A stretch of 64,000 bases of DNA, from assembly GCA_022072085.1 (NCBI GenBank), contig JAJVII010000015.1, forward strand, positions 186,001 to 250,000, in the 5' to 3' direction. Positions 57,957 through 61,766 of this stretch are shown piece after piece. Each line of letters begins with the position of its first letter. Position 1 is the stretch's first letter. Source of the DNA: Phycisphaerae bacterium. Lineage in GTDB: Bacteria > Planctomycetota > Phycisphaerae > JAJVII01. Both the position numbers and the translations under genes were made by a program. A model generated the notes under the pieces. It saw only the letters and a program-made list of their open reading frames with translations, had not been told where the DNA came from and ran no database searches.

Positions 57957-59060
57957 TCAGCCCTCAGCGGGGGCGTGGGTGAGGGATCGGCCGGCCCGCA
58001 GGAACGGAATCACTCGGACGTGCACCACCGCCGATCGGTCGGCATAAGCGAGCAGCGTGTCCACGGCCATTCGGCCCATCGCCTTGCCGTCGCCGCTGAG
58101 CCGGGCAACCGACGGCGGGGCCGAGGAGTAGCTGGCCCCGCCGATCATCACCACGCTCAACCGGCTGGGGATGCGCAGCCCGACCATCCGAGCGCCCCGC
58201 CGGATGGCATCGTACGACGCCATCTTGCTCACCAGCGCCGTCGGCGGCGGATTGACGTCCAACAGGTCGGCCACCTGCTCGGCCGTCAGCAGGTGGCTCT
58301 CGTCAGTGAGAGTCTGCGGGCATCGCTCCAGGGCGATGTCCAGTTGCTCAAGTCCCAGCCGCACGCCCTCCAGGCTCTGCGAGTTGACGTTGTCGCCCGA
58401 GCCGGCAGCCGCAAGCACCAGCCCGATCCGCCGATGGCCCAGCCGCCCCAGACGCTGCATCAGTTCGATCATCCCGCTGCGCCAGTCGAACGTGATCGTG
58501 TGGTGCAGGCCGTTGGCCGACAGGTCGTCGGCGAAGACCGCGTGGATGTCGCGGCGGCGCAGCGCCCGCAAACCGGCCGCATCGACCGTCGAACCCAGGA
58601 AGACGGCCCACGTGCCCGGCGGCATCGACTCGATAACGCGGCGGGTGAATCGCGGGTGCGGCGGCACGCCCAGCGGCGTCTCGCTGCCGCGGATGTCCGC
58701 CGGCACATGATGGCGGCGGCAGGCCTGCCGCACGCCGGAGATGAACTGCGTCTGGAACGGGCTGTCCGGCCGATTACGCGACTGGTAGCTGTTGATCAGC
58801 GTAATGGATGTCGGCCGTCGGCCTGGCCCTGCCGACGTGGCGGCCGATGATTGCGAGACGTAGGTCCGCCGCGGGTTGGGGCGATAGAGCACGCCTTCGC
58901 CGACCAGCAGGTCCATCGCCCGCCAGGCGGTCTTGGGATCGACGCCGAGTTCCTTAGCCAGCCGCTGCACGCCGGGCATCGCGCCGGTGTATCGCCCGCC
59001 GCTGATGCGGCGTTGTAGTTCCTTGGCCAACTCGATGTATTTGACGGGCCGACCGGGCAT
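57957..59060 (-). CDS. GntR-type HTH regulator with LacI-like ligand-binding domain
   Basis: A 367-residue regulator: a GntR-type winged helix (about 1-70, PGVQRLAKELGVDPKTAWRA) followed by a periplasmic-binding-type domain (about 80-360, VDAAGLRALRRRDIHAVFAD; RRIGLVLAAAGSGDN), the architecture of AraR-type sugar repressors. The promoter region holds a 15-base palindrome (59139-59153) that could be its operator. It is divergent from the PEP-CTERM genes and may regulate them or a distant sugar operon. Confidence 0.85.
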   Translation of the reverse strand: MPGRPVKYIELAKELQRRISGGRYTGAMPGVQRLAKELGVDPKTAWRAMDLLVGEGVLYRPNPRRTYVSQSSAATSAGPGRRPTSITLINSYQSRNRPDSPFQTQFISGVRQACRRHHVPADIRGSETPLGVPPHPRFTRRVIESMPPGTWAVFLGSTVDAAGLRALRRRDIHAVFADDLSANGLHHTITFDWRSGMIELMQRLGRLGHRRIGLVLAAAGSGDNVNSQSLEGVRLGLEQLDIALERCPQTLTDESHLLTAEQVADLLDVNPPPTALVSKMASYDAIRRGARMVGLRIPSRLSVVMIGGASYSSAPPSVARLSGDGKAMGRMAVDTLLAYADRSAVVHVRVIPFLRAGRSLTHAPAEG

Positions 59061-59138
59061 GGGGCGGGCTCCAATGGGCGATCGGACTTCGTGGCCGGGC
59101 GGTCCGGCGCGGCGGGAAGTCCTGCAATCCGACTTTCA

Positions 59139-59153
59139 TTTATACCATACAAA
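59139..59153. promoter_or_regulatory. Candidate operator palindrome
   Basis: TTTATA-CCA-TACAAA is symmetric apart from one base pair, and sits 80 bases before the regulator start on the minus strand. Confidence 0.4.
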
Positions 59154-59332
59154 CAGGCCCCATGTGTTGCTTTCCGTCAACATGAATGGGGGGCGTGTTG
59201 AGGTTCCGCAACAAGCCGGTCGGCAAGCGACGGAAATCACCGTCGGACCGACTCCCGGTAACGCTATGTAAGTGTAGTATCTATAATGCTTTGAAGTACA
59301 TAATCACATCGGTTCCATTTTTTTGCCTGAGC

Positions 59333-59348
59333 TGGCACGCGGTTTGCA
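59333..59348 (+). promoter_or_regulatory. Sigma-54 promoter of the PEP-CTERM genes
   Basis: TGGCAC at 59333-59338 and TTTGCA at 59343-59348 match the -24/-12 consensus, with exactly ten bases between GG (59334-59335) and GC (59346-59347). The ribosome site and the first PEP-CTERM start lie about 100 bases downstream. Confidence 0.8.
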
Positions 59349-59456
59349 CTGGAGTTGTGTGCGCACGGGGCCTTGCCAGAGGACCCGCATGGGATGAGTG
59401 ACAGAACGCTTCCCGAAGAGAGCTCCGGCGGAGGAGCGACCGAAAGGAGAACAGAC

Positions 59457-60671
59457 ATGAGGAAAACAGACACGAGGCTAGCCGCCAAGATCGTCCTGAG
59501 CACGCTGCTGCTGTCGGTTTCGCAGGCGACGGCGGCGCTGGACTACTTCGTCGTCTCCTCCCAGACCAATGACAAGGCCCACGTGTTCACCTACGACACG
59601 GTGACCAAGAGCCTGAGCTACGTGGCGGGCACGTCGCTGTTCGGGACGGCCAACACACCCACGCACGTCAGTTCGCTGCCGGGGTACGGGTTCATGGTCA
59701 GCCAGTCCGGGTCGGGTCAGCCGTGGGAGGGCATCGAGCGGTTTACCACTTCCGACCAGTCGACCTGGACCAGCGACATGAAACTGGGGCTCTTCGGCGA
59801 GACCGGCGCGGGCGAATTCTTCGACACCACCCAGCGCACCGGCACGGCCACGACCGACCCGGGCAGCCCCAGCGCCGCGGCCCTGCTCAATGGGGTCACC
59901 CTGGTGGCCGACGCCCGCGCGCAGAACTCCAACGCCCGCTACTTCGGCCTGCTGGACACCTCGTCGCTCTCGGGCGCGGTGACTGGTCCGTTCCTGGTCG
60001 AGGGCAACCTGTCCGACAGCGGCGGCGATGCCGGGAACAAGTTCGACGTGGTCGGCACGCAACTGGGCGCGACCAACCGGTTCATCATCACCTCCAGCAA
60101 GACCAACGATGACGTCATGGTCTACAACCAGGACGGCACGCTCAAGGGAACGCTGACGCCGCCGGCCACCGACGCCAGGCGCGGCGTGGGCAACTTCAAG
60201 CAATCGGCCCGCGGCGACCAGGTCCTCATGGTCGAGGGCAACCAGGCGCAGTATTCGACGCTCAAGATCTCCGCCCGCTCGGTCGCTGACGGCGACTTCA
60301 ACAGCCTGATGTTCGGTTTCAACTACTCCCCGAGCGGCAGTGCGCAGCAGTTCATCAGCACGATTCCCAACGACATCGACGGCACCGAGAGCGGGCTAAT
60401 CATGGTCATGGGCATGACCCGCGGCGCCGCCGGCGACAGGGTGGGCGTCCTGTTCTTCCAGACCACCGACGGCGGGACGACCTGGACCCCGACGACCAGC
60501 GGCCCGATGCTTCTCCAGAACGCCGCCGGCGCCCCGTCGGGCGTCACCGGCGACTCCATGGCGGCCCTGTTCGCCGCCCCCGTCACGGTCCCCGAACCGG
60601 CGACGATGAGCCTGCTGGCGCTGGGCGGACTGGGGCTGATCGGGGCGGGACTGCGGCGGCGCAGCAGGTAA
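59457..60671 (+). CDS. PEP-CTERM secreted protein of unknown function
   Basis: A 404-residue exported protein: a signal peptide (about 1-27, KIVLSTLLLSVSQATAA), a repetitive beta-rich domain resembling a propeller (TNDKAHVFTYDTVTKSLSYV), and a C-terminal PEP-CTERM sorting signal (VPEPATMSLLALGGLGLIG, then RRR) for exosortase processing. AAGGAG precedes the ATG at 59457. It follows a sigma-54 promoter and is probably co-transcribed with the next gene. Confidence 0.87.
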   Translation: MRKTDTRLAAKIVLSTLLLSVSQATAALDYFVVSSQTNDKAHVFTYDTVTKSLSYVAGTSLFGTANTPTHVSSLPGYGFMVSQSGSGQPWEGIERFTTSDQSTWTSDMKLGLFGETGAGEFFDTTQRTGTATTDPGSPSAAALLNGVTLVADARAQNSNARYFGLLDTSSLSGAVTGPFLVEGNLSDSGGDAGNKFDVVGTQLGATNRFIITSSKTNDDVMVYNQDGTLKGTLTPPATDARRGVGNFKQSARGDQVLMVEGNQAQYSTLKISARSVADGDFNSLMFGFNYSPSGSAQQFISTIPNDIDGTESGLIMVMGMTRGAAGDRVGVLFFQTTDGGTTWTPTTSGPMLLQNAAGAPSGVTGDSMAALFAAPVTVPEPATMSLLALGGLGLIGAGLRRRSR

Positions 60672-60780: not shown

Positions 60781-61692
60781 ATGCGTATCGCCGCGTCGCT
60801 CAGCATTGTGCTCCTGACGCTCCTCAGCGGAACCGTCAGGGCGGCTCTGGTTCCCACGGCCCTGACCGGGAGCGAACCGGAGACCGTCGCCCTCTACAAC
60901 TTCAACGAATTCTCCGGTAACGACGTTGTCATCAGTGCTGGCGCCCTCCAGGATGCCTCAGCCAATAACCTCGACGGCACGCACGCCACGACCCGCGTTT
61001 ACACCAACTCGCTGAGCGGCTTCGGTGAGGAGATGCGGATCAGCACGAGCGACATCCGACTGCCAGGCGGCAGTCTGACTTCCTCCTTCTTCCAGGGTGA
61101 CTTCACGATCGAGGCCTGGATCAAGGTCGACGGCCTGACCAAGACGACCGGAAACGTCGGCCAGGTGATCACGACGACCCAGCGGTTCTTCAACAGCCGC
61201 TCCAGCAGCATCGGCTGGATCTTCCAACTGGCCACGGACGGGACCGCCAACAAGCTCCAGGTCCACAACGGCTCGGCGTTCTCCGACGCGATCACCGGCT
61301 TTACGCTGCCGACCAGCGGCTGGACGCACTGGGCGATGGTGTTCACCAACACCAACCCCGGCAGCACCGACTCGGCCTACTCTGTCCAGTTCTACGTGAC
61401 CGACCCGAGCGTGGACACCGAACCCAACCTCATCGGCACGTTCAATCTCAACCCGACAGCCAGCACGACCTCGCTGGCCGCCATCGCCCTGGCCTTCACC
61501 GGCGACGCCACCTTCTCTTTCGCCCCGAACATCGACTCGGTGCGGATTGACGACGTGCGCGTCAGCAACGTCGCCCTGACGACCTTCGCCGCCCTCGGAC
61601 AGACCACTTCCATCCCCGAGCCTGCGACACTGGGCCTGCTGGCCCTGGGCGGCCTGGGACTGGCCGGGGCGGCCCGGCGGCGGCGTCACTGA
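60781..61692 (+). CDS. PEP-CTERM LamG-like secreted protein
   Basis: A 303-residue exported protein: signal peptide (MRIAASLSIVLLTLLSGTVR), a concanavalin-A/LamG-like domain at about 40-260 (FTIEAWIKVDG; GWTHWAMVF; IDDVRVSNVAL) that binds glycans in other proteins, and a PEP-CTERM anchor (IPEPATLGLLALGGLGLAG, then RRRR). GGAAAGG precedes the ATG. It lies 109 bases after the first PEP-CTERM gene. Confidence 0.88.
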   Translation: MRIAASLSIVLLTLLSGTVRAALVPTALTGSEPETVALYNFNEFSGNDVVISAGALQDASANNLDGTHATTRVYTNSLSGFGEEMRISTSDIRLPGGSLTSSFFQGDFTIEAWIKVDGLTKTTGNVGQVITTTQRFFNSRSSSIGWIFQLATDGTANKLQVHNGSAFSDAITGFTLPTSGWTHWAMVFTNTNPGSTDSAYSVQFYVTDPSVDTEPNLIGTFNLNPTASTTSLAAIALAFTGDATFSFAPNIDSVRIDDVRVSNVALTTFAALGQTTSIPEPATLGLLALGGLGLAGAARRRRH

Positions 61693-61737: not shown

Positions 61738-61766
61738 AGGCCCGGCTCCCAAGGCCCGGGCCTTTT
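61738..61766 (+). terminator. Terminator after the PEP-CTERM genes
   Basis: AGGCCCG (61738-61744) pairs with CGGGCCT (61757-61763) around a 12-base loop, followed by TTTT. It lies 46 bases past the second PEP-CTERM stop. Confidence 0.7.

Follow-up and report, generated by a model that had tools for sequence, protein, structure and literature searches.

The control of PEP-CTERM surface-protein genes by sigma-54, in concert with the regulators PrsK and PrsR, was predicted for Proteobacteria (Haft et al. 2006, PMC1569441), an arrangement whose motifs and sigma-54-PrsR pairing were described in that phylum only, leaving open the regulation of PEP-CTERM genes in other phyla (PMC1569441). One question then is how such genes are transcribed in a planctomycete. 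The stretch of DNA explored here (hereafter the window, 64 kb in length) derives from a Phycisphaerae-type planctomycete, whose genome is a draft of 5.49 Mb in 72 contigs, and it contains a candidate sigma-54 promoter in front of two PEP-CTERM genes. We ask whether this element is a functional promoter, whether it belongs to a larger set and which activator is likely to act on it.

The promoter and its probable operon

The sequence TGGCACGCGGTTTGCA at 59333-59348 on the plus strand agrees at every position with the sigma-54 consensus TGGCACG-N4-TTGCW, comprising a -24 element TGGCACG and a -12 element TTGCA, with the GG at 59334-59335 and the GC at 59346-59347 separated by the correct spacing of N10. 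The site is intergenic, scores 25.3 bits and is the only exact match in the 64 kb. Matches with up to two mismatches are as frequent in the window (10) as in shuffled sequences (10.1), so that here only a match to the full consensus is informative. By the geometry of sigma-54 promoters transcription would start about 12 nt past the -12 GC, at 59359 (+), predicting a leader of ~98 nt up to the ATG at 59457, with a ribosome-binding site, AAGGAG, at 59444-59449 (+). The first gene (59457-60671, +) encodes a protein of 404 aa matching both TIGR02595 (23.2 bits, cut-off 16) and PF07589 (26.9 bits, cut-off 20.7), and the second (60781-61692, +) a protein of 303 aa with a lectin/laminin-G-like domain (PF13385, 36.7 bits) and a TIGR02595 score of 23.2 bits; both proteins exceed the cut-offs of the two PEP-CTERM profiles, that is, the sorting signal is present. 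The second gene has no sigma-54 site within its 400 bp upstream and probably forms an operon with the first. A possible terminator, recognised by eye at 61739-61766 (+), consists of GGCCCGG, a 10-nt loop and CCGGGCC followed by TTTT; it is omitted by the terminator scanner because the loop is longer than 8 nt.

The -24/-12 elements with their proper spacing, the ribosome site and the two PEP-CTERM genes downstream, all of which had been claimed in a preliminary description of this DNA, are indeed there, and on the evidence of its sequence 59333-59348 is a functional-looking sigma-54 promoter of a two-gene PEP-CTERM operon. On the minus strand a divergent gene at 57957-59060 encodes a GntR-type or periplasmic-binding-protein-like regulator (PF13377, 42.6 bits; PF00392, 26.8 bits with a cut-off of 27), which possibly exerts an additional local control on the operon.

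Sigma-54 promoters and PEP-CTERM genes across the genome

The gene for sigma-54 itself, rpoN, for which the preliminary description had proposed a search, is present in one copy (C12:73253-74731, 412.8 bits, cut-off 277.35; here and below the prefix denotes the contig). The genome also encodes about 95 proteins whose C-termini pass the curated PEP-CTERM cut-off, a single exosortase (C8:86626-87399, PF09721 190.9 bits) and 13 proteins with strong matches to PF00158, the sigma-54 activators. Exact sigma-54 consensus sites number 53 genome-wide, and sites with at most one mismatch 122, as against 45 for the reversed pattern.

The association with genes was assessed in about 1.82 Mb of the 5.49 Mb, selected to contain PEP-CTERM genes, sigma-54 sites and activator genes, with genes called by a simple codon model and a sigma-54 site model built on the same genome. 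Of the PEP-CTERM genes 57/90 have a strong site in the 400 bp before them, of the other genes 30/1255 (odds ratio 70, p 2e-54). The untrained textbook consensus yields the same picture, both as an exact match (26/91 PEP-CTERM versus 17/1293 other genes) and with at most one mismatch (49/91 versus 33/1293, p 9e-43), and the odds ratios amount to an enrichment of sigma-54 promoters at PEP-CTERM genes of about 40-70-fold. Because DNA with sites was deliberately selected, the count for non-PEP-CTERM genes is an overestimate, and the contrast errs on the cautious side. No site above 18 bits falls inside a gene. About a third of the PEP-CTERM genes lack a site of their own, many of these being later genes of tandem arrays, like 60781-61692.

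The genome search put forward in the preliminary description relied on the bare motif GG-N10-GC, which is almost ubiquitous in this GC-rich genome (found before 89/91 PEP-CTERM genes and 1238/1293 others) and was dropped as evidence; the enrichment at PEP-CTERM genes emerges with the fuller consensus. Together with the presence of rpoN, this enrichment backs the assignment of a sigma-54 promoter to PEP-CTERM genes, and 59333-59348 would belong to a regulon of about 60 near-identical PEP-CTERM sigma-54 promoters in this Phycisphaerae-type planctomycete.

Paired and helically phased dyads upstream of the promoters

The DNA preceding the PEP-CTERM sigma-54 promoters is rich in the words ATGTTG and GCAACA, which combine into an 18-bp dyad, TGTTG-N8-CAACA, of which the 1.82 Mb contain 49 exact copies, 39 of them upstream of PEP-CTERM promoters. 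Dyads of TGTTG and CAACA with spacers other than 8 are not enriched in the same DNA (0-3 in all). In the window, the distal dyad TGTTGCTTTCCGTCAACA (59165-59182, +; 25.2 bits), a predicted activator-binding site, begins 167 bp before the sigma-54 motif; the proximal dyad TGTTGAGGTTCCGCAACA (59196-59213, +; 20.6 bits) is re-found by the phylum-wide cassette pattern. The two are 31 bp, or about three helix turns, apart.

This arrangement is typical of the class. Using a position model, at least one dyad is detected at 53/63 PEP-CTERM sigma-54 promoters and two at 40/63, leaving 10/63 without a dyad; among other sigma-54 promoters the count is 12/37. The dyad pairs, located about 100-170 bp upstream of the promoter, have a usual spacing of 21-22 or 31-33 bp, with dyad centres clustering near -106, -127, -137 and -158, in phase with the helix (best period 10.35 bp, R 0.58; for proximal dyads alone p about 2e-7). 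Such phased pairs are expected from DNA-looping activators that must face the polymerase. Conversely, 66 of the 71 strong dyads in the 1.82 Mb are followed, after 60-300 bp, by a strong sigma-54 site; of the remaining five, three lie close to PEP-CTERM genes on C6 and two precede an operon for a kinase and an activator on C56. The models for the dyad and for the sigma-54 site were both trained on this genome; the untrained consensus, the spacer test and a second Phycisphaerae genome, STB_87 (see below), provide independent support. The promoter class thus appears to possess an upstream site for an AAA+ activator, in the form of paired, helically phased dyads, which we regard as predicted binding sites.

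The preliminary description had suggested that an AT-rich island could be an enhancer site. That candidate, the AT-rich stretch between the dyads and the promoter (about 59262-59326), yields a weak consensus only and was abandoned in favour of the two dyads, which are the enhancer-like elements of this region. Because a rise in AT content at -60 to -30, just upstream of the -24 element, is common also to the sigma-54 promoters of non-PEP-CTERM genes, the stretch is probably a generic DNA-bending region and not an enhancer.

Strong sigma-54 sites without dyads, at C33:77492, C9:110638, C23:9498, C9:62816 and C18:90563, precede genes that by reading encode Hsp20, GroEL, DnaK, FlgB and an ammonium transporter, implying that other activators share the sigma-54 regulon.

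The candidate activator

On a contig other than that of the window, profile domains identify an NtrC-type activator of the receiver-AAA+-Fis type (C56:18657-20033) and its operon partner, a PAS-HisKA-HATPase histidine kinase (C56:20023-21216). Apart from sigma-54 or PEP-CTERM regions, strong dyads occur in the 1.82 Mb examined at this operon only. An orthologue of the C56 activator occurs in every cassette-bearing planctomycete genome searched and is the top-scoring activator in each, with an identity of 85% in STB_87, 62-65% in G057, bin43 and GWF2_41_51, and 52-53% in G010, G098 and G080. In a tree that took in 6 of the 8 rows the orthologues form one supported clade (97/82), and an activator encoded on C18 falls outside it. 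Dyads upstream of the kinase-activator operon are likewise conserved in the genome under study, STB_87, G057, bin43, GWF2_41_51 and G098 (6/6 with upstream DNA), a count that leaves aside G010 and G080, in which this DNA is truncated or unclear. Of 392 genomes sampled across the phylum, 87 have the C56-type activator and five the exact cassette, all five with the activator; three of the five belong to one family and so do not represent five independent events.

The gene or intergenic region adjoining the operon in STB_87, bin43 and GWF2_41_51 has a dyad and sigma-54 pair. We tentatively assign the adjoining gene to the PilZ type; the PilZ profile was run on the copy of the genome under study, on C9, only, and gave 14.4 bits with a cut-off of 22.5. 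Taken as a whole, these patterns suggest that the C56 NtrC-type activator, acting with the PAS kinase, is the likely dyad binder; that it binds the dyads, that transcription depends on it and that a signal is relayed to it are what we infer.

Two further activators are encoded beside cassettes, a receiver-less PspF-like protein (C18:38576-39538) and a GAF-domain protein (C37:23442-24977). In the region C18:38381-39854 (L142) the C18 activator with its own cassette is followed by a strong sigma-54 site without a dyad before a gene for a CheY-like receiver protein, an organisation that possibly represents an activator cascade; a repeated CTTCTCTCTCTCACTGGCC unit lies downstream of the small gene after this activator (L142:3890-4470). 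Near the C37 activator, a small conserved protein of about 85-110 aa containing YMSFDLEATRRENEYLR is encoded behind a dyad-sigma-54 cassette (C37:25460-25763; L158). It has no Pfam match and is found behind a cassette also in the planctomycete-type MAG stretches L240, L252, L272 and L280. C18 and C37 may both be members or partners of the circuit, and are at the same time the main rivals as dyad binders.

Recurrence in other genomes

Among 84,980 species genomes, a scan with the exact cassette retrieved 78 stretches, many of them from planctomycetes. In the Phycisphaerae genome STB_87 cassette matches lie on several contigs and most of the downstream genes end in a PEP-CTERM signal. When the models of the first genome were applied to the 253 kb read of STB_87, a sigma-54 site was found at 22/39 testable PEP-CTERM genes, 19/22 with a dyad, among 30 such sigma-54 sites in all. 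STB_87 replicates the arrangement of PEP-CTERM gene, sigma-54 promoter and dyad. In two more planctomycete MAGs, L238 and (less directly) L256, the cassette likewise stands in front of PEP-CTERM-like genes, and in L244 in front of a PAPG-type variant.

In other phyla similar dyad-promoter pairs precede unrelated genes, which means that the dyad class is not exclusive to the C56-type activator. By reading of the encoded proteins, dyad and sigma-54 pairs lie before LpxC-like genes in L246, L263, L270, L274, L282 and L290, from Nitrospirae, Deltaproteobacteria and Acidobacteria MAGs, and the cassette lies before a thiamine-phosphate-synthase-like gene in three planctomycete MAGs (L225, L276 and L278).

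A proposed circuit and its alternatives

Sequence statistics bear out the promoter and its association with PEP-CTERM genes across the genome, the dyad with its spacing and phasing, and the replication in another species. We consider it quite probable that the whole can be explained by a sigma-54 operon promoter within a regulon of ~60 promoters, which a C56-type activator would control via the paired dyads. On this model, the C56 activator, the partner of the PAS kinase, would on phosphorylation bind the paired dyads on one face of the helix and loop the DNA via the AT-rich spacer, such that its AAA+ ATPase could open the sigma-54 polymerase complex at -24/-12. The surface proteins that the single exosortase processes would in this way be produced in concert.

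The possibility that 59333-59348 is a chance match in GC-rich DNA draws on the agreement of the two-mismatch count in the window with random expectation, yet the site is exact, its position and orientation are right, paired dyads lie at the standard distance, and about 60 more examples exist; the genome-wide statistics already contradict this possibility, which we regard as negligible. Local control could be envisaged as dominating the operon, with the sigma-54 site secondary, either through the GntR/LacI-type regulator, whose gene sits divergently at 57957-59060, or through a sigma-70 promoter in the AT-rich stretch, which could contain a weak -10-like sequence. However, a simple scan of 58900-59457 found no sigma-70 promoter, and the same type of cassette fronts about 60 PEP-CTERM promoters, making a dominant local control very unlikely. 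A less remote, though still unlikely, alternative accepts the same sigma-54 promoters and dyads and assigns their activation to C18 or C37. In its favour, the C18 gene is itself preceded by two dyads and a 27.5-bit sigma-54 site, a cassette lies downstream of the C37 activator gene, and several other Phycisphaerae-type MAGs have a cassette in front of a gene for a small protein resembling the C37 neighbour. But the C56-type activator is kept in every cassette genome searched and C18 lies outside its clade, no activator adjoins the small-protein cassette on the stretch examined in L240, L252, L272 and L280, and the cassette before C18 is equally well explained if C18 is a target in a cascade. 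Given that C18 and C37 lie beside cassettes, a cascade or another dyad binder is possible.

Finally, the operon might be regulated by the canonical PrsK/PrsR/PrsT system as in Proteobacteria. The two are alike in outline, PEP-CTERM genes being served by sigma-54 together with an NtrC-type activator (PMC1569441), and the C56 protein is the top match in the genome to the PrsR model (TIGR02915). Nevertheless, this best match reaches 418.3 bits where 502.6 are required, and the protein fits the AtoC model better (479.6 bits), though again short of the cut-off; the best score for PrsK (TIGR02916) is 107.2 bits with a cut-off of 300. The core of the PrsR box, TTTACA, is found at 3/63 PEP-CTERM promoters where 2.7 are expected, and is thus not enriched, and the full palindrome TGTAAA-N5-TTTACA, an inferred form of the box, is absent from the PEP-CTERM promoters even when one mismatch is allowed. 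The dyad centres lie 100-160 bp upstream, unlike the 17-nt box about 63 nt upstream. Canonical Prs regulation is accordingly highly improbable, and the PrsK/PrsR-type control suggested in the preliminary description is not upheld. A plasmid search detected generic NtrC-type activators only, with less than 50% identity.

Comparison with known systems

Like Prs, the circuit proposed here, centred on the C56-type activator and the paired dyads, has sigma-54 promoters in front of numerous PEP-CTERM genes, a kinase paired with an NtrC-type activator, a site for the activator upstream that is in places repeated, and an exosortase-associated cargo. It differs in phylum, in having an activator and a kinase below the Prs cut-offs and in a partner kinase with PAS as the sole recognised sensor domain. 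The enhancers also differ, a TTTACA-ended 17-nt box at ~63 nt in Prs being replaced by TGTTG-N8-CAACA, mostly paired and phased, at 100-170 bp upstream. By the tests made, the planctomycete circuit would resemble Prs in its working without being a member of it. In domain order (receiver-AAA+-Fis HTH) the C56 activator is similar to the response regulators of AtoS/AtoC and ZraS/ZraR, and the top NCBIfam matches of the pair are AtoC (479.6 bits) and AtoS (216.5 bits), yet these scores are far below the equivalog cut-offs (714 and 646) and the targets are different.

Among Proteobacteria, sigma-54 is an established regulator of PEP-CTERM genes, a role backed for Desulfovibrio vulgaris DVUA0057 by DAP-chip (PMC3333781; also PMC4641369) and for the RpoN-dependent pepA of Aquincola by start mapping and an rpoN mutant (PMC9850573). 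DVUA0057 has 6 operons, whereas here about 60 promoters are implicated, an unusually large number for one activator when compared with D. vulgaris, in which most sigma-54 activators control one to four operons (PMC4641369). As in the sigma-54 regulons that a motif scan predicted for Planctomycetota (PMC12316311), sigma-54 promoters are found here at chaperone, flagellar and regulator genes; the text of that 2025 survey, which includes planctomycetes, contains neither PEP-CTERM nor exosortase and assigns no activator to such a group.

We lean, with some reserve, towards the view that Planctomycetota recruited sigma-54 for PEP-CTERM genes independently of Prs, and that a dyad-preceded NtrC-type pair, often beside a PilZ-like (c-di-GMP) gene equipped with the same enhancer and promoter, grew in one Phycisphaerae lineage into a regulon of ~60 PEP-CTERM promoters under a single activator, with C18, a second activator, as a cascade target. 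The PilZ-like gene hints at a possible tie of c-di-GMP signalling to surface-protein expression. The pair of regulator and site is concrete enough to be tested, and a list of about 60 co-regulated surface-gene promoters is ready for this purpose. Whatever the history of its parts, this planctomycete displays a Prs-like logic with a different regulator and a different enhancer.
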